DNA of 20,831 bases from a virus. The DNA lies in IMG/VR virus record IMGVR_UViG_3300035698_025401, positions 1-20,831 of that record. The stretch is one strand, 5' to 3'. Below are positions 3,001 to 18,479 of this stretch, piece after piece (the stretch's first letter is position 1; every line of letters starts with the position of its first letter). A program made the position numbers and the translations under genes. A model generated the notes under the pieces. That model was not told the origin of the DNA, ran no database searches, and saw only the letters and a list, made by a program, of their open reading frames with translations.

Positions 3001-4291
3001 ATCTAAATGTATCAGCCATTTGTTCGATATTTACATTAGACATTGTAGTTGTCGCAATAAAAGCATCATTTACTCTTGTAAGATCTGATACGGTTAATCC
3101 CATAGAAATCATTGCATTTGTACTTATATCTGCTGCTCTTGCAAGATCAATTTGTCCAGAGGTAGATAATTCTATTACAGCGGCCAATGCTTTTGTTGTC
3201 TGAATAGCTGTTAATCCTGCCATACCTAAAAACTTTGCACCACTTGCAACTTGCATGGCTGTTTTTTCTGTAGAAGATCCAAGCCTTCTTACTTCTTCCT
3301 CAAGAGCTATTGATTCTCTATTGGTAGTTTGAAGAATTGCATTTACCCTAACCATTTCTTGTCTGAATTTTCCACCAGATTCAATTACAGTAGAGAATAT
3401 TTCTTTACCTTGCCAAGCAAGCATGGTTGTAGTTAGAAATGGCAATAGTTGTCTTAGTTGGCGATTAAATTTTACAAGTCCTTCGCTTCCATTATGAAAA
3501 CCATCATTAATTCCTCTTTGATTGTTTTTTAATTTATCGTAAGCTTTGGAAAGTTTCTTAACCTGTTTTTCCATATCTTTGTATTTTGAATCAATAGATT
3601 CTATAACTTTGTTTTGATCTTTAAAAGCATCAACAAGAGAAGATATTCCCTTTTTTAGATTTTTATTTTGTGATCTTAATCTAGAGTTACCGGCTCCAAG
3701 ATCTTTTGAGACTTGATTTAGATTACTATAGGCTTTTGTAAGATCTTTTAATGCTTTTGTAGTGACTTTGTGGCCGGAGGATTCTTTTGATAAACTTTTC
3801 TTAACTTTATCTATTTCTTTAGTGGCTGAGGCAAGAGATGAAGATGTTTTATTATATGCACTAGCTAAACCAGAATTATTCTTTGTTTGCTGTTGCATTA
3901 ACTTATCTAAATTTCCATACCTTCCTTCTAAGCTTTTATATTTTTGATTTAATTCTGAGAGACTTCCAGAAACTTCTTTGTGCAGCTTAGCTTCTTTCAT
4001 AAACTTAGACTGATAATTTCTCATACCAGCCGTAGTTTTTTCTCGTTTTTTTGTTAAGTCTTCAACTTCTTCTTTAAGTTTAGATGTTTCTTTCGTAGAG
4101 GTTGATGTTGCTTTTTGAAAGGCTTGTTCAGCAACAACAACTGCTGCTGAACTTTTCTTAGAAATCTTCTCTACATCCTTAAAAGATTTCTCAGTCTTCT
4201 CCATATTCTTGATTAATTTGTCTGTTTCTTCTTGGGCCTTTCTCATATCAGAAAAGAATTTCGATAAATCAAATGTTATTTTCTCACTCAT
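1..4291 (-). CDS. phage tail tape measure protein, TP901-like (partial, C-terminus beyond the window)
   Basis: The frame is open from the ATG at 4291 to the left edge, giving more than 1,430 residues, so the C-terminus is missing. Residues 1-280 are Lys/Glu/Ser-rich and look like long coiled coil. About residues 300-540 carry the recognisable TP901-type tape-measure core (EEEVRRLGSSTEKTA, then GLTAIQTTKALAAVIELS, then GTLGNSGVQGSLAGTQL). A Gly/Ala-rich hydrophobic patch follows near residues 655-675 (around 2270-2330), then another long charged helical stretch. Tape measure proteins set tail length, fill the tail tube and help DNA cross the host envelope. The start has an AAGGTGA ribosome-binding site and lies 3 nt after the stop of the chaperone second frame, the standard position after G/GT. 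No peptidase or lysozyme motif was recognised in the visible part. The family call is confident; fine domain limits are estimates. Confidence 0.93.
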   Translation of the reverse strand, partial: MSEKITFDLSKFFSDMRKAQEETDKLIKNMEKTEKSFKDVEKISKKSSAAVVVAEQAFQKATSTSTKETSKLKEEVEDLTKKREKTTAGMRNYQSKFMKEAKLHKEVSGSLSELNQKYKSLEGRYGNLDKLMQQQTKNNSGLASAYNKTSSSLASATKEIDKVKKSLSKESSGHKVTTKALKDLTKAYSNLNQVSKDLGAGNSRLRSQNKNLKKGISSLVDAFKDQNKVIESIDSKYKDMEKQVKKLSKAYDKLKNNQRGINDGFHNGSEGLVKFNRQLRQLLPFLTTTMLAWQGKEIFSTVIESGGKFRQEMVRVNAILQTTNRESIALEEEVRRLGSSTEKTAMQVASGAKFLGMAGLTAIQTTKALAAVIELSTSGQIDLARAADISTNAMISMGLTVSDLTRVNDAFIATTTMSNVNIEQMADTFRYAAPKAKAYGYSIEALSAMIGTLGNSGVQGSLAGTQLSFAMGKVDDVFKKLNKSGSGKGLLDALEAINEAGWTTGDIFDNFAERGGRAAVMLRDVVPLVRLLQKRIEESNGISKKIAEDMRNTYVNDMKILKSAFSELGIGIFDEWNDSLRKATQNMTSFLSDNEDGIIEFFGDIGRGVDNAAKSLKDYSPLIGTLGETLGLLANTFEKHPILSTLSSVLMGHGTLTLNPITYGIGAAIGGGAVADVGFDEAHREKEIKEIFEKYFNIEGVTKGNFKETVSTFSANQIVVLYEEIKNLEVSKVEEAIKNLQDQKIEIDKRSVSFEKFNPLGDGKENLFSISSSKKAKEIQDLIKYKENISNQIKKNSSMYKEIIEKKSMSDEELIGIITSKNAQNLGFDLVDFLKDDKQNKAVETYIEKENAFYKEQIRKVQQMSAASLDFEILLQNLGEKISSPVQKYFDSINVSVPEDKINETGKIWKKFNDRIIADQSAIDSATNAIKVTKEKISKLQNQIRFKESEPKDRHEMVHFQTSPKKYKSDMSKDVLEKSLKDAIAVLKNNEDVLEREKPELYAHIKKMEDYFKDYAAGLKKASEIKERFKKLLQQQKDQATISIGAYGYKDDSWEDITIELKMSKIDELDISDVEKKEKKIRMLSEVSMEQLESEINYYKDYADKNNIAANDMPEYKAAIDRMLYEIEIYYKDLGATSEQIASAIYRYKESLKSENTELENLIVEQDKQLELIGKTDLQKKLLKIEGMSGSPEIKLEAKENTAELFIKKFTIDNVIVDDYKSKLEDISIAFEYFKRNISLSAEDDKKFKNILTFMSGVINIHGADQMIDKAKNTNDKLLEIEGDYRKRAGEIQKLSSLQYKGGGDFYTNAQIKKMEDLNEKSRDYKLSLLEIPDWITKYEAKAQKALDSTSEAILAQKEKELARYKDYGKGKVAYIEVMEAEIQALREKGYTAELDSFIIHQQEMEKASERAGKYLNDIPSLSDRIGNLP

Positions 4292-4710: not shown

Positions 4711-5127
4711 TTAGTTTTTTGTTTCTTCCTCTTTTTTAACCTCTCTGTTTTCCTGAATCTCATCAACCTGGTCTAGAACCCAACCAATTATCTCTGGATT
4801 ATATGACCAAACGGCAAGTTTGTTTTCCTTAGTGCATTTAAGAACATTTCCATTCATATCTTCTACACCTTTCCAGTCAAGAATAGTATCAACTATTCTT
4901 TCTTTTTGAACTTCCATTAAATTAGGTTCTTTAACTAATTCTTTTTTTGTTTTTCTGTTAGGTGAAACCCAATCTTTTTTCTCATGTTTCTTAAACACCA
5001 CATCAAGCTCCTGTGGTGTCATTGGAGACACAAAAAAAGTAGCGAGTATTTTGCTATCAGGATCATTATTGTCTTCCTTGAAATCAATCTGAATGGTCTC
5101 TTTTTCTATTCTTAATCTTAATGCCAT
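4711..5127 (-). CDS. tail assembly chaperone, first-frame (G-like) protein
   Basis: A 138-residue acidic protein beginning MALRLRIEKETIQIDF, with a beta-rich N-terminal half and a helical C-terminal half (EPNLMEVQKERIVDTILDWK, then NPEIIGWVLDQVDEIQE). The GxxDxxG-like 'LDWKGVED' stretch and small C-terminal helices are typical of phage tail assembly chaperones. It follows the tail tube gene and precedes the tape measure gene. Most ribosomes should stop at 4711 to give this short form; a minority should shift -1 at 4714-4720 and make the long form. The ATG has a GGGAG ribosome-binding site 8 nt upstream. The leader in front of it holds a large RNA pseudoknot (5150-5227), which may tune the amount of this gene relative to the tube gene. 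The role is inferred from synteny and the frameshift. Confidence 0.8.
   Translation of the reverse strand: MALRLRIEKETIQIDFKEDNNDPDSKILATFFVSPMTPQELDVVFKKHEKKDWVSPNRKTKKELVKEPNLMEVQKERIVDTILDWKGVEDMNGNVLKCTKENKLAVWSYNPEIIGWVLDQVDEIQENREVKKEEETKN
4714..4720 (-). promoter_or_regulatory. -1 ribosomal frameshift slippery site A AAA AAC
   Basis: In the frame of the upstream chaperone gene the codons read ACA AAA AAC TAA, placing a perfect X XXY YYZ heptamer directly before the stop codon. A -1 slip continues as CTA ATT GAG TAT GCT GCT TGG ATG, in frame with the downstream ORF without a stop. A Shine-Dalgarno-like GAGG (4728-4731) lies 7 nt upstream of the heptamer. Internal SD-like elements of this kind are known to stimulate -1 frameshifting in bacterial dnaX. 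Confidence 0.85.
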
Positions 5128-5149
5128 GTTAAATTCTCCCGTTATTTTT

Positions 5150-5227
5150 AATCCCCCGGTTTTGTTTTAAATGCGTCCTATAGAATCCAAAACCGGGAGA
5201 TTATTTGTATTCTAATCAAAGGACGCA
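5150..5227 (-). promoter_or_regulatory. large H-type RNA pseudoknot in the tail tube-chaperone intergenic region
   Basis: Two interlocked helices can form in the late transcript. Helix A pairs 5221-5227 with 5172-5178 (TGCGTCC/GGACGCA, 7 bp) and 5209-5214 with 5181-5186 (TAGAAT/ATTCTA, 6 bp), separated by a 6/2 internal loop. Helix B pairs 5188-5202 with 5150-5164 (AATCTCCCGGTTTTG with CAAAACCGGGGGATT; 14 of 15 pairs, 10 continuous around CCCGG). The 5' strand of helix B lies in the loop of helix A, and its 3' strand lies downstream, so the topology is a pseudoknot with linkers of 6, 1 and 7 nt. No T-tract follows on either strand, so it is not an intrinsic terminator. It ends 10 nt before the chaperone ribosome-binding site. 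The function is unknown. Confidence 0.75.
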
Positions 5228-5276: not shown

Positions 5277-6737
5277 CTAAATTATAACAATATCGCAACT
5301 GTCTTCACCTGCTGACCCAAGTGCTGTTGTAGGCATTGCAAGAGTTGTAGTTGCTCCCTCAATTCCAATTGTTGGCGTATTAGATCTGGCAAGTGGCATA
5401 CTGATTGCTAGTTTTCTTTCTTCGTCATGACCAGCTCCATCAACAGCCGCACCCATATTCCCAAAAAGTAGATGCATTTTAAAAGTATTTCCAACAGATC
5501 CAAGGGTAAAATACTTAGCATCATCCTTTCTGAAATAAATATTCATGTCAGTTGTAATTTCTCTAGTATTTTCAACAAAACCTTCTGGATTAGTTGTTCC
5601 AACCTCATCAATAATATAATCTTTTGGAACATTAAATGAAAGATCAGACGACCTGAATTGACCCTGAACATCATCTATCCAGACATATGTGTATCTTGAT
5701 TCAATAGCATTTGCAACTGTAGTTCCAGTAGGTAGATATCCAACAACCTCATCATCAACTTCCCAATCAGACTCAAGAACATGCCCAGCTATAAATGTAA
5801 GTTTGTCAGTTGTAGCATCTATACTTTCAATTTGATACCCAACAGTAGAATTTGAATCAACTGTCCCATCTGCTGCATGAATACAGCTCACAAAAGCACC
5901 TACGCTAAATTTAGTTGTATCATCAACAATGGTAAAAAGAGCTCCTGTAGTTCCTTTCGTTTGTACATCATCAGAACCTGCAAAAACCATTGCCATACCC
6001 TGACCACTCATAGTCCAAGTTACAGCTCCTTCATTATCGACTCCAACACTACCAGAATTTACAGTACATCCTGAAAGGCCCTGAATAAAATGATCAGTCA
6101 TAACCCAAAGTGAGAATGTAGGAGAATTAACCGCTTGTCTATACCAATCAGAAGTAAGTGTTACTACATAAGGCCCACTTGCTGATCCAGCATGTGCATT
6201 TGCTGTGCTTCCATCCCAAGCTCTAATACAATTATGGAAAGTTCCAGTTGTAGATGTTGCAGCTGTTATTCCTCTATAATAAATAGTTTCATTTGCTGTA
6301 GTTCCATCAGTTATTGTAATAACTCCAGTTTCAGGAAGCCTTGTATCTCCAGCTAAAGTAGTATAAGGTATTTCAAGCAAATCAATAGCAATGTCAACAG
6401 CTAAAACTGCTGTTACTGTATCTCCATCTACTTTGCTTCCCTGTAAACACTCCATTAGAACGTCACCCTGAATATCTTCTTTATGATTATCAGGCATTCT
6501 TAGATACATGTTGCAAGACCAATCTCCAGGAGGTTGTGCATTCTGAAACTGATCAATAATATCCAAGGAATCATTTATTTCCTCAGAATTCATAAAATCA
6601 GGGTTTTGTTTAATAGTTGCTGGCCCTGCTGGTAAAATATAATCTGTTGTAGCAGGAAATTTTAGAGTTCCAGCAGTATCTTCTTTTACAGCGAAAACCT
6701 TTTGCTTCCTAGCTGTTCCTATCCCATCATCTGACAT
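5277..6737 (-). CDS. major tail tube protein
   Basis: A 486-residue, beta-rich, Cys-poor protein between the tail terminator gene and the chaperone/tape measure genes, where siphoviruses encode the tube subunit. The N-terminal part (GTARKQKVFAVKEDTAGTLK, then DYILPAGPATIKQNPDFMNS) resembles Phage_tube_2-type tube proteins that start with a short AxKEDTxGT segment. The middle holds virion insert motifs, such as TGTFHNCIRAWDGSTANAHA around residues 164-183, common in phage structural proteins. The length exceeds the ~150-250 residues of simple tube proteins, which suggests one or two decorating insert domains. The start has an AGGAG site 8 nt upstream (positions about 6746-6750). Family assignment is by pattern and synteny; exact domain limits are not certain. 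Confidence 0.8.
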   Translation of the reverse strand: MSDDGIGTARKQKVFAVKEDTAGTLKFPATTDYILPAGPATIKQNPDFMNSEEINDSLDIIDQFQNAQPPGDWSCNMYLRMPDNHKEDIQGDVLMECLQGSKVDGDTVTAVLAVDIAIDLLEIPYTTLAGDTRLPETGVITITDGTTANETIYYRGITAATSTTGTFHNCIRAWDGSTANAHAGSASGPYVVTLTSDWYRQAVNSPTFSLWVMTDHFIQGLSGCTVNSGSVGVDNEGAVTWTMSGQGMAMVFAGSDDVQTKGTTGALFTIVDDTTKFSVGAFVSCIHAADGTVDSNSTVGYQIESIDATTDKLTFIAGHVLESDWEVDDEVVGYLPTGTTVANAIESRYTYVWIDDVQGQFRSSDLSFNVPKDYIIDEVGTTNPEGFVENTREITTDMNIYFRKDDAKYFTLGSVGNTFKMHLLFGNMGAAVDGAGHDEERKLAISMPLARSNTPTIGIEGATTTLAMPTTALGSAGEDSCDIVII

Positions 6738-8762: not shown

Positions 8763-9254
8763 TTATGTTGCAGCCAAACAAGTCAATGTCACACTTTTAG
8801 TTGCAACAGTGTATCCAAGAATAGTTGTATTAGGTACTTTCAGAACAACAGTATCTCCTGTTTCCCATAGACTAGTTCCAACTACATTCATTTGGCCAAT
8901 ACCTTTAGTTATGTTACAATCACCAGTAAGTGTTATCCCACTATATAGCCCTGCATCACCAGATTCTGCTGTAGTTACAATAATTCCACTTGTAGAGACA
9001 GTTCCATTAAACCATTTATGGTTAGCCCCTCCACTAGATTCCTGTAATTTGATATCAATCGGAATGGCTGCAAATCCAGAGGTTGATCCACTTAACAACC
9101 CTCCTCCTGAAGAATTAGCTATCATTCCACTTGAAGTAGTAGAAACATGAAAAACTATTCCACCACAAAGAGCAACATCCCTTTGGGTATCATCTGTATC
9201 TCTTGAGTCAAACTCATCTTTAACTTTTGGTTGAATACCATTTTTACCTATCAT
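8763..9254 (-). CDS. putative capsid surface/decoration protein, paralogue B
   Basis: A 163-residue Gly/Ser/Thr-rich beta protein. It shares an almost identical beginning (MIGKNGIQPKV, then FDSxDTD) and end (TILGYTVAxxS, then TCLAA) with the gene just upstream at 9274-9717, so the two arose by tandem duplication. The middle has diverged and contains an extra Ser/Gly-rich loop around residues 41-58. There is no signal peptide and no transmembrane segment. Placement directly after the major capsid gene and the repetitive Thr/Gly/Ala composition suggest a head decoration or outer capsid protein, but this is inference from context. A strong AAGGAGG site (about 9262-9268) precedes the ATG, suggesting high expression. 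Confidence 0.72.
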   Translation of the reverse strand: MIGKNGIQPKVKDEFDSRDTDDTQRDVALCGGIVFHVSTTSSGMIANSSGGGLLSGSTSGFAAIPIDIKLQESSGGANHKWFNGTVSTSGIIVTTAESGDAGLYSGITLTGDCNITKGIGQMNVVGTSLWETGDTVVLKVPNTTILGYTVATKSVTLTCLAAT

Positions 9255-9273: not shown

Positions 9274-9717
9274 TTAGGCGGCAGCTAAACAAGTTACTTT
9301 AGCAGAATCAGCTGCAACAGTATATCCAAGAATTGTAGCTTGTGCAGCTTCAACAGTAAAATGATCATCCTTTGCCCATGTCAATGATCCGGTTACTTCA
9401 ACAGTTCCAACACCTTCAGTTAGAACACAAGTTGTGGCTGGAACTTGTGCTGCTGTACCGTCACCACCTGTAGTTACGGCTAATGCAGTTGTTGTAATTG
9501 TATCATTAAACCAATTATGTGTATCTCCAGCAGCATTTTCCAATGCAATTTGAACAGTAATTGCAGCAAATCCAGTTCCTGCTGTAGGAGCATCATCAAT
9601 CGCAGTAACTACAAAAACTATATCTCCAGACATAGCTGTATCTACAATTTCTTTATCTGTGTCTACTGAATCAAACTTATCTCTAACTTTTGGTTGAATT
9701 CCATTTTTACCTATCAT
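9274..9717 (-). CDS. putative capsid surface/decoration protein, paralogue A
   Basis: A 147-residue Ala/Thr/Gly-rich protein immediately after the major capsid gene (14 nt gap), with an AAGGAG site. Paralogous to the 163-residue product that follows it: both begin MIGKNGIQPKV and finish with TILGYTVA and TCLAA. The shared motif GFAAI at about residues 49-53, an aromatic 'WFN' at about residues 69-71 and a C-terminal beta segment argue for the same fold. The size, the lack of charged helices and the position fit a small decoration or stabilising protein that coats the SU10-type capsid. A role as head fibre or neck decoration cannot be excluded. Confidence 0.72.
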   Translation of the reverse strand: MIGKNGIQPKVRDKFDSVDTDKEIVDTAMSGDIVFVVTAIDDAPTAGTGFAAITVQIALENAAGDTHNWFNDTITTTALAVTTGGDGTAAQVPATTCVLTEGVGTVEVTGSLTWAKDDHFTVEAAQATILGYTVAADSAKVTCLAAA

Positions 9718-14295: not shown

Positions 14296-14340
14296 AAAAA
14301 GATAAACCCTACAAAATATGAAAGTAGGGTTTATCTTTTT
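14294..14340 (+). terminator. bidirectional intrinsic terminator
   Basis: GATAAACCCTAC (14301-14312) and GTAGGGTTTATC (14324-14335) form a perfect 12-bp stem with an 11-nt loop, flanked by A-run and T-run (T5 on the plus strand, T7 on the minus strand). It separates the convergent plus island and the portal operon; the stop codon of the minus-strand gene overlaps its edge. Confidence 0.92.
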
Positions 14341-16430: not shown

Positions 16431-18479
16431 TTAAACCTCCTGGGTTTGAACAGCAGATTTTCTATCAAGTATTCTAAATCTAAGAGCATCCCAAATGTGA
16501 TCTTCCATAGAACTTAGAACATCTTCTGGATTTTTCTCATCTCTAATTAGTATAGGAACTGTTCTAAGAAAATTTCTACAATTATTAAATACGAAAAATC
16601 CAGGTTCTTCCATTTTTTCTTTAGCACTTTCAGCAAGCATAGTTCTAAACAATTCAACTCCTATAACTCTACTTCCAGATTTCTTATTACTTCTCTTCCA
16701 ACGAATACCTTTCTTTATATTACCATTTTCATCTTTAAATTTCAACATCCTAAGAGCAATACTAGGCAAACCACTCTCTGTTACAAATATATTATTATCT
16801 GCTGCACCAGGGTGAACAGTTCTATCTTTTAACAACCAATGATTTTCAATATAGTCAATAGTGTTTTTGGTCACATCAACTACATTTAACATAACTCCTT
16901 CATTAGCTTTACCGGTATATCCATAGTATTCTAAAATATGAAATAATGTACCTTTTGGGAAACTTCTCATAATACCATCACCAATGTCTACCTCTTCATC
17001 ATTTGTACATTCTGCAAAGAAACAAATTGCAAATGGATGACTGCTGCCATAATCGTAAGTAACATCTATATACCAACTTTTAGGAATCTTAAAAGGATTT
17101 ATACAATGAATACTTTTATTCCAAACATCAGAGAATATTCCACCAATAGCAATATCCCAACTTCCCTCAATCCAAGCTTTCTTTTTGGCTTTGTCAGAAA
17201 TTCCAGATGCTATTCTTTGCATATAATTAGGGTCAGCATCTAACAATGGCCTATTTTCAGAAATATCACTGTCAATCCAACATCTTTTTTCACCAACCTC
17301 ATCAGTGTATATTTCACAACTTTCAGAAATATCTATGAATCTTTCTTTAACCCAACCAGCTCCTGGGCCAAATGGATTAGTAGTACTTCTATATCTCTTT
17401 GGAATTTCTGGATGAGGACTCCTGCAAATACTTTTTATGCTTTCATAACTATCTGGAGATAGAAAATTTGTTAATTCTTCCCAACCACAATTTTTATTAA
17501 CAACATGAAATCCATTACTAATTTTAGTTATATAATGATTTACTTCCTCAATCCTAAGATCAATCATGTCAGTTCTGTAATCTAATTTATTAGTGTATCC
17601 TCGACCAATACTGCCAGAAAAGTAATCACTTTCTATATATTTTGCGGAATAAGGATGAATGTATTGTAAAAAATTATTACAAGAATCATAACAAGAATCA
17701 TAACAATTAGAACCATTATCTCCAGGATTTTTATAAACTAATACCGGTAAATCTCTGGTTTTGAATTTATTCAAGAATTTTAAGTTATTATGACTACAGC
17801 CGAAACTCCAAGTATCATTTAAATCTAATTCGTCCATAGTATTAAGAACACTATGGTCTAATCCTTGATTTTGTACTCCTATAACTTTACTGTTTTTGTC
17901 TACTACTTTAAGTTGACAACAAGGTTGGTTGTATATCTCAACTTTATTTTGAACAGGTCTAGGGCCATTTAATGTTTGAACTAAATCACCTTCAAAAACA
18001 TCTATAATGCATTTATAACTTCCATCTCCCATAAGAACTTCTGTTTCAGGAGTTACACACCAAGGTATTTCCCATCCATGATAATTCCAATAATCACTCG
18101 GCCTTTCCATATATCTAAATAACAATTGCTCTCCATCAGGAAATGTCCACTTGTTTTCAGAAATATGATACTTAGCTTTTGGAAATACCTTAGGTATCCA
18201 CTCTTGAGATTTTGTTATAACATCAAATAATTGTTTATATGTTTGACGAAATATAATACCTCTCCAGCTTACTCCCCAACCTACTCCTACATCTTTTAAA
18301 TAGTCAAAAAGAAGTATTAATGTCTTGCCACTACCTCTAGTTCCTGTGACAAGAACCTCAAAAATAGGGCAGGTTAAGAAATCCACCTGAAAACCAGGGT
18401 TTGGAGTAAAAACAACGTCACTGTGGTCATAATTTTGTCCGTTTATTGTCAGCATTTCACTTTTTTCAGTTTTTTTCAA
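16431..18479 (-). CDS. terminase large subunit, interrupted by a mini-intein
   Basis: The 682-residue precursor is the DNA-packaging motor. The Walker A motif VTGTRGSGKT lies at residues 44-53. The Walker B segment is split: extein ends at GWEIPW (140) and resumes at CGWEELTNF (331), restoring IPWCGWEELT after splicing. The coupling motif STTNP is at 365-369. The C-terminal nuclease shows D472 and D476 (IDVTYDYGSSH), D561 (AADNN), and D660 with D664 (MEDHIWDALR). Without the 190-residue intein the protein has 492 residues, normal for TerL. The start is TTG at 18479 with an AGGGGAG site 4-5 nt away; an in-frame ATG at codon 9 has a weaker site. No small terminase gene was identified nearby. 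Confidence 0.92.
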   Translation of the reverse strand: MKKTEKSEMLTINGQNYDHSDVVFTPNPGFQVDFLTCPIFEVLVTGTRGSGKTLILLFDYLKDVGVGWGVSWRGIIFRQTYKQLFDVITKSQEWIPKVFPKAKYHISENKWTFPDGEQLLFRYMERPSDYWNYHGWEIPWCVTPETEVLMGDGSYKCIIDVFEGDLVQTLNGPRPVQNKVEIYNQPCCQLKVVDKNSKVIGVQNQGLDHSVLNTMDELDLNDTWSFGCSHNNLKFLNKFKTRDLPVLVYKNPGDNGSNCYDSCYDSCNNFLQYIHPYSAKYIESDYFSGSIGRGYTNKLDYRTDMIDLRIEEVNHYITKISNGFHVVNKNCGWEELTNFLSPDSYESIKSICRSPHPEIPKRYRSTTNPFGPGAGWVKERFIDISESCEIYTDEVGEKRCWIDSDISENRPLLDADPNYMQRIASGISDKAKKKAWIEGSWDIAIGGIFSDVWNKSIHCINPFKIPKSWYIDVTYDYGSSHPFAICFFAECTNDEEVDIGDGIMRSFPKGTLFHILEYYGYTGKANEGVMLNVVDVTKNTIDYIENHWLLKDRTVHPGAADNNIFVTESGLPSIALRMLKFKDENGNIKKGIRWKRSNKKSGSRVIGVELFRTMLAESAKEKMEEPGFFVFNNCRNFLRTVPILIRDEKNPEDVLSSMEDHIWDALRFRILDRKSAVQTQEV
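17490..18059 (-). mobile_element. mini-intein in the terminase Walker B region
   Basis: Residues 141-330 of the terminase precursor. Block A is CVTPETEVLMGDGSY, beginning with the nucleophilic Cys141, then GDLVQTLNGPRPV, which matches Hint-domain N-terminal strands. Block B is GLDHSVL with the expected His209, although the usual Thr three residues before it is Gly. The C-terminal blocks read DLRIEEVNHYITKISNGFHV and VNKN, ending in Asn330 before the +1 Cys331. The usual penultimate His is Lys, which is known to be tolerated in some inteins. At 190 residues it has no LAGLIDADG or HNH segment, so it is a mini-intein. A CYDS duplication (17679-17702) lies in its central loop. Splicing would restore the Walker B segment of the ATPase. 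Confidence 0.88.
17679..17702 (-). repeat. two 12-bp direct repeats in the intein linker
   Basis: ACAAGAATCATA occurs at 17679-17690 and 17691-17702 in direct tandem and encodes the doubled CYDS unit. It marks the place where an endonuclease domain would sit in larger inteins. Confidence 0.75.

Follow-up and report, generated by a model that had tools for sequence, protein, structure and literature searches.

Among the closest described systems, the preQ1-II and SAM-II riboswitches are pseudoknots that mask the Shine-Dalgarno sequence (SD), and the gene 32 operator of phage T4 is a pseudoknot that lies 5' of a phage start site, serves translational control and is bound by the gene's own protein. 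Two papers have this T4 gene 32 translational operator pseudoknot as their topic (PMC3014915, PMC535899). A third system is the int-alpA RNA, family RF02996 of Rfam release 15, filed there under the type 'Gene; sRNA' with a gathering cut-off of 35.8 bits. Our literature search found no paper citing RF02996, and int-alpA was mentioned only as an entry in a list of E. coli small RNAs (PMC12370729). In enterobacteria, int-alpA elements are flanked by an integrase and a hypothetical gene. Here we describe a structured RNA ahead of a phage tail assembly chaperone gene which, with fair confidence, we read from its sequence as a cis-acting leader of that gene that would act as a translational switch through its loop, and as a divergent member of a class of phage RNAs to which int-alpA RNA also belongs. 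The fold seen in the earlier sequence-only reading is confirmed; its interpretation is partly supported, being right that a real structure under selection is linked to the start site of the chaperone.

The window, that is, the whole stretch of DNA analysed, is a single 20.8-kb IMG/VR virus record (20,831 nt), and because its late genes lie on the minus strand, the transcript is the reverse complement of the window. The element lies on this minus-strand transcript between the gene of a phage tail tube protein (5277..6737, minus strand; phrog_290 'minor tail protein', with a match to Pfam PF18906 Phage_tube_2 at 28.8 bits, barely above the cut-off) and that of a tail assembly chaperone (4711..5127, minus strand; phrog_313). 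A slippery-type A AAA AAC is found at 4714-4720 (minus strand), immediately 5' of the chaperone stop codon, and the next open frame past it runs in the -1 frame through 4295; this is likely the programmed frameshift that tail assembly chaperones usually have, and the Lys-Asn C-terminus is unchanged across 8 aligned chaperones, which is what a slippery A AAA AAY would predict. We rejected a frameshift-stimulating role for the fold, since the slippery site lies more than 400 nt downstream of it rather than just before it. A role as intrinsic terminator was rejected as well: the sequence-only reading was right that no U-tract follows and that the fold stops 5' of the chaperone SD, and no terminator-like site is present there. 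A promoter-like TTGAAA-17-TATTAT at 5276-5248 is of a kind that is not above its frequency in shuffles, and we therefore make no promoter claim.

Elsewhere in the window, a perfect 17-bp hairpin with an 11-nt loop stands between two convergent genes (14296-14340) and is perhaps a two-way terminator. The products of two adjacent genes (8763-9254 and 9274-9717, minus strand) share the start MIGKNGIQPKV and resemble a tandem duplication; a Pfam search of both products gave no match, and a similar adjacent pair is carried by one of the relatives described below (L016). The terminase large subunit (16431-18479, minus strand) aligns to phage homologues in two pieces with ~69% covered, leaving residues roughly 143-330 unaligned; this insert, which begins CVTPETEVLMGDGSYKCIIDVFEGD, looks intein-like by its sequence, and its sole family match is NF038136, far under the cut-off (E=0.055).

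Upon examining the element itself, we found both of the interlocking helices that had been proposed from the sequence. The first, S1, pairs TGCGTCCT (5227-5220) with AGGACGCA (5179-5172) over 8 bp and is continued by 6 bp of TAGAAT/ATTCTA; the second, S2, is longer than had been proposed, at 16 bp with one G-U included, and pairs TAATCTCCCGGTTTTG (5203-5188) with CAAAACCGGGGGATTA (5164-5149). Two features had gone unnoted. The 5' arm of S2 includes TCTCCCG, the exact 7-nt complement of the chaperone SD CGGGAGA, and S1 can be extended by CAAA/TTTG in competition with outer S2, so that the two full helices are probably not simultaneous. In terms of pseudoknot geometry, too, the full 16-bp helix is unlikely together with full P1/P3, the connecting strands being only ~5 and ~7 nt. 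Segmented by hand, the RNA reads on the minus strand as the 5' strand of P1, which is S1 of the earlier reading (TGCGTCCT, 5220..5227; a pairing that covaries in relatives), a joining strand TTGAT (5215..5219) where relatives carry UA-P2-GAYA(A), the 5' strand of P3 (TAGAATACAAA, 5204..5214), the P3 loop L3 (TAATCTCCCGGT, 5192..5203), the 3' strand of P3 (TTTGGATTCTA, 5181..5191; a helix with one A.G mismatch) and the 3' strand of P1 (AGGACGCA, 5172..5179). These are followed by two words that complement L3, namely copy 1, the 3' arm of S2 (CAAAACCGGGGGATTA, 5149..5164), which ends 21 nt 5' of the start codon, and copy 2, the chaperone SD CGGGAGA itself (5135..5141), which pairs via TCTCCCG and whose pairing covaries in relatives. 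The window copy has neither P2 nor the junction motifs, and its copy 1 helix is extended.

Next, we compared the fold with chance expectation. S1 and S2 form the sole interlocked pair of such strength in a scan of the window, and a total of 3 such pairs arose when the whole window was dinucleotide-shuffled 40 times, with helices of S2 strength at a mean of 0.025 per shuffled window, in agreement with the earlier claim that the helices are beyond chance in A+T-rich DNA. The fold has a z-score of -3.07 with the pseudoknot pairing left out. The pairing between L3 and copy 1 scores 28.7 over 12 bp, and none of 20000 random 26-nt stretches reached 28. The 7-bp match between L3 and the SD is equalled by 872 of 20000 random SD regions with the GGAG core fixed (~4%) and is weak taken alone, so that its support comes from the relatives and the class-wide tests. 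A free descriptor search against shuffles gave z=1.0 for the window and missed true helices of several elements; being too permissive, it was replaced by the explicit hand segmentation. Rfam searches of the element matched no SD-masking riboswitch family, and matches to snoRNA and miRNA families had E near 1 and were set aside as chance.

Relatives were gathered by tail-tube searches, which yielded a set of uncultivated phages that share this gene pair, mostly at 29-57% identity to their query; no direct DNA or protein relatives of the gene pair were found among the isolated phages and plasmids searched, nor a tail-tube relative in the genome contigs searched. The element is found at the same location in these diverged phages, and among the distinct tube-chaperone gaps all except those of L017 and L079 hold a structured RNA. 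By hand segmentation the elements share a common plan of P1, UA, a P2 hairpin, GAYA(A) and a P3 hairpin with an accessible L3, after which the 3' strands of P3 and P1 stand close together, followed by a short linker, copy 1, a spacer and the SD. In most relatives copy 1 ends ~17-22 nt 5' of the start codon, and in most the SD is a second complement of L3, i.e. a second copy of the copy 1 word; a single partner copy is present in L016, L066, L023 and L067. The closest relative of the window in the tail-tube tree (L069; support 92/90) carries the full fold, and the SD segments of the two are nearly identical (AATAAACGGGAGATATTACAATG versus AATAACGGGAGAATTTAACATG). As side observations, L071 has a second pair of inverted repeats that interlock, GTCCTA/TAGGAC with ACTACC/GGTAGT, in the stretch from the tube stop to the element (6396-6445), and in L066 the element lies 5' of a short open frame inserted ahead of the chaperone (3250-3350), with the loop word TCTGGG repeated immediately before the chaperone start.

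Covariation among relatives had been put forward as the test of both helices, and both came through it. Because MAFFT alone misaligned the helices, a covariance model was seeded with 3 elements of near-equal geometry, and it found 11 more in 229 kb, all at expected loci. In the resulting 14-sequence alignment, which was fitted to the structure and is hence biased in its favour, both sides vary in 16 of the 19 nested pairs, 95.2% of cells are paired (64.3% after shuffling) and covariation scores 0.785, as against 0.206 when shuffled and at most 0.11 when slid. The second helix, the pairing of L3 with copy 1, covaries as well. Furthermore, when arms were swapped among 22 elements, a set that excludes L023, whose only loop partner is the SD itself, the true pairing was reached in 0 of 5000 swaps for each of P1, P2, P3, L3-copy 1 and L3-SD, in a test that rests on hand segmentation with P1 to P3 also chosen for pairing. 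The result was likewise 0 of 5000 for L3-copy 1 and L3-SD in the 18 tail-chaperone elements alone. For instance, L024 has the loop CCTGG and GCCAGGAG twice, L072 has the loop CCTGTTT and AAACAGG twice, and L066 has the loop CCCAGA and the partner TCTGGG. Covariation at the sequence level thus shows the predicted pairings P1, P2, P3, L3-copy 1 and L3-SD in the class. The description of the locus as an H-type pseudoknot therefore captured a real interlock but was incomplete, relatives having a three-way junction and a loop with two alternative partners, one of them the SD.

The earlier reading knew of no described phage RNA element of this form at this position; RF02996, to which the element is related, offers a precedent. 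One tail-chaperone element (L073) matches the family at 46.7 bits, and its cut-off is also passed in the records of L068, L074 (G016) and L083 (G022). In G022 there is a second match (L091), which precedes a gene with a weak match to a helix-turn-helix, and an element upstream of a Rha antirepressor (L129) passes as well. With a junction pattern, more elements came to light ahead of a Rha antirepressor, a DUF1376-like gene and other genes. A model blind to the loop partners, R2, recovered the enterobacterial int-alpA elements and found a new site in G023 (L111), where each partner of the loop CTGCA is present: TGCAG and the SD GCAGGAGG. G022 and G023 carry the element ahead of more than one gene (L091, 1430-1500; L111, around 1501), and one phage-encoded or host factor could therefore act on several genes. 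A scan of IMG/VR for the succession of loop, copy 1 and SD returned 39 stretches, and the real ones among them were known tail elements only. The window itself matches neither RF02996 at its gathering cut-off (35.8 bits) nor R2 and would not count as a member on those tests; on the sequence evidence of its location, P1/P3 topology, loop word TCTCCCGG, both partners and its relative L069, we place it in the class as a putative divergent member.

A second pattern identified at least 120 int-alpA-type stretches in IMG/VR, and we tested 46 among the matches listed whose loops were distinct and whose start codon lay 24-45 nt downstream. In these 46 elements, with each loop taken once and the statistics otherwise uncorrected for relatedness, L3 matches its own copy 1 (z=15.8, 0 of 20000 swaps) and its own SD (z=11.6, 0 of 20000 swaps), and three control regions gave z-scores of -1.6, -1.1 and 0.0. 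Both partners are present in 39 of the 46. Among the matches listed, copy 1 tends to the 3' part of L3 and the SD to its 5' part, and because both use the middle of L3, the two pairings exclude each other. A hairpin around the SD covaries in the int-alpA type (z=8.7) but not in the tail-chaperone type (z=-0.1), and the mechanism of the latter may differ in detail. The genes downstream of int-alpA-type elements include Dam and other methyltransferases and NUMOD/HNH, AP2 and endonuclease VII-like proteins; elements ahead of NUMOD, HNH, AP2 or endonuclease VII-like genes were seen in L207, L189, L204 and L182, which suggests that the element moves together with homing-type endonucleases or controls them.

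Judged from these sequences, the element probably controls how much of the next protein is made. Once transcribed, P1 and P3 would fold and present L3, which would take one of two downstream words with a common core. In the ON state L3 would form the pseudoknot with copy 1, with its 3' end ~20 nt from the start codon and the SD left free, and in the OFF state it would pair with copy 2, the SD itself, masking it unless copy 1 captures L3, so that the balance between copy 1 and the SD would set the frequency of ribosome starts on the chaperone. We infer that the L3-SD pairing lowers translation, that copy 1 is a relieving decoy, and that the window variant, without P2 and with an unusually strong copy 1 helix, works alike, mostly ON. 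The calculated energies in the window are -17.2 for the hairpin, -24.0 for the copy 1 helix and -10.4 for the SD pairing; by these values the hairpin would form first and the copy 1 helix would then outcompete its upper part and the SD pairing, and the default state of the window element is therefore probably ON. The proposal that the fold sets the tube-to-chaperone ratio is upheld in its link to the chaperone start site, and such an effect is one plausible outcome, though an inferred one. Sequence conservation of the junction UA/GAYAA suggests a bound protein or ligand as the trigger, and a ribosome finishing the upstream gene would be another candidate.

If that ribosome were the trigger of the same element, it would open P1 from the upstream stop codon, shift the partner of L3 and couple both genes free of any ligand. 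In most relatives and in the enterobacterial int-alpA elements, P1 starts 2-15 nt past the upstream stop codon, a distance that the ribosome footprint puts within reach of a terminating ribosome; however, it is 33-70 nt in the window, L069, L071, L016, L024 and L091, and the conservation of junction nucleotides is left unexplained, so that we regard this trigger as rather unlikely. The window's own copy might also be a decaying relic without function, as could be argued from its lack of a match to R2 and RF02996 and the loss of P2 and the junction motifs. Its P1/P3 arms and 16-bp copy 1 helix are nevertheless intact in A+T-rich DNA, and L072 and L082 likewise have no P2 but keep P1, P3 and both partners, making a relic improbable.

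We also weighed two further readings. It could protect or process the RNA, as a block to 3'-5' exonucleases or a mark for cleavage that sets the tube-to-chaperone ratio through mRNA stability; this would suit a compact and stable fold directly 3' of the tube gene, but it predicts neither that the loop covaries with the next gene's SD nor that the distance from copy 1 to the start codon is near-constant, and we consider it decidedly improbable. A trans-acting small RNA with the loop as its seed would accord with the type under which Rfam files RF02996. That account has hardly any likelihood in our judgement, given that the loop matches its own downstream SD, with both changing together between phages, and that the elements stand immediately before the start codon ahead of many different genes.

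The cis-acting leader that we prefer would give an orphan structured RNA family, RF02996, a concrete and testable job, namely cis control of translation starts through two competing loop partners, with one fold reused ahead of many phage genes, structural ones included, and with natural variants available for reporter and probing work and for finding the trigger. A broader and more tentative proposal, which we hold to be possible but somewhat short of an even chance, is a widespread and hitherto unrecognised class of phage sensor RNAs whose junction senses a protein or small molecule and whose loop moves between decoy and SD to switch the start of the following gene; if true, it would serve integrase-linked genes, the antirepressor, homing-type endonucleases, methyltransferases and the tail chaperone.

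In comparison with known systems, the proposed element resembles preQ1-II and SAM-II in that a pseudoknot beside the start site decides the availability of the SD, whereas its fold is different and those riboswitches depend on a ligand, which for this element is a candidate trigger. It is like the T4 gene 32 operator in having a pseudoknot 5' of a phage start site, and we know of no T4 gene 32 junction whose loop has a second, SD-matching partner. Since a catalogued family without an assigned function has a related fold, the element is not new in kind; what appears to be new is its occurrence in the tail cluster, the variant without P2 and the double partner including the SD. The structure line of RF02996 in Rfam leaves out both the loop pairing and the second, SD-located partner, and the int-alpA type has an additional hairpin around the SD that the tail-chaperone type does not have. 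RF02996 and most tail-chaperone relatives have in common a three-way junction that includes P2 and is joined by UA and GAAAA strands; this junction is absent in the window, which the model does not match. The window nevertheless shares with RF02996 its site between one gene's stop and the next gene's SD and a P3 loop whose complement follows closely 3' of P1, and with the two-partner class the second loop partner overlapping the next gene's SD (TCTCCCG/CGGGAGA, 7 bp).
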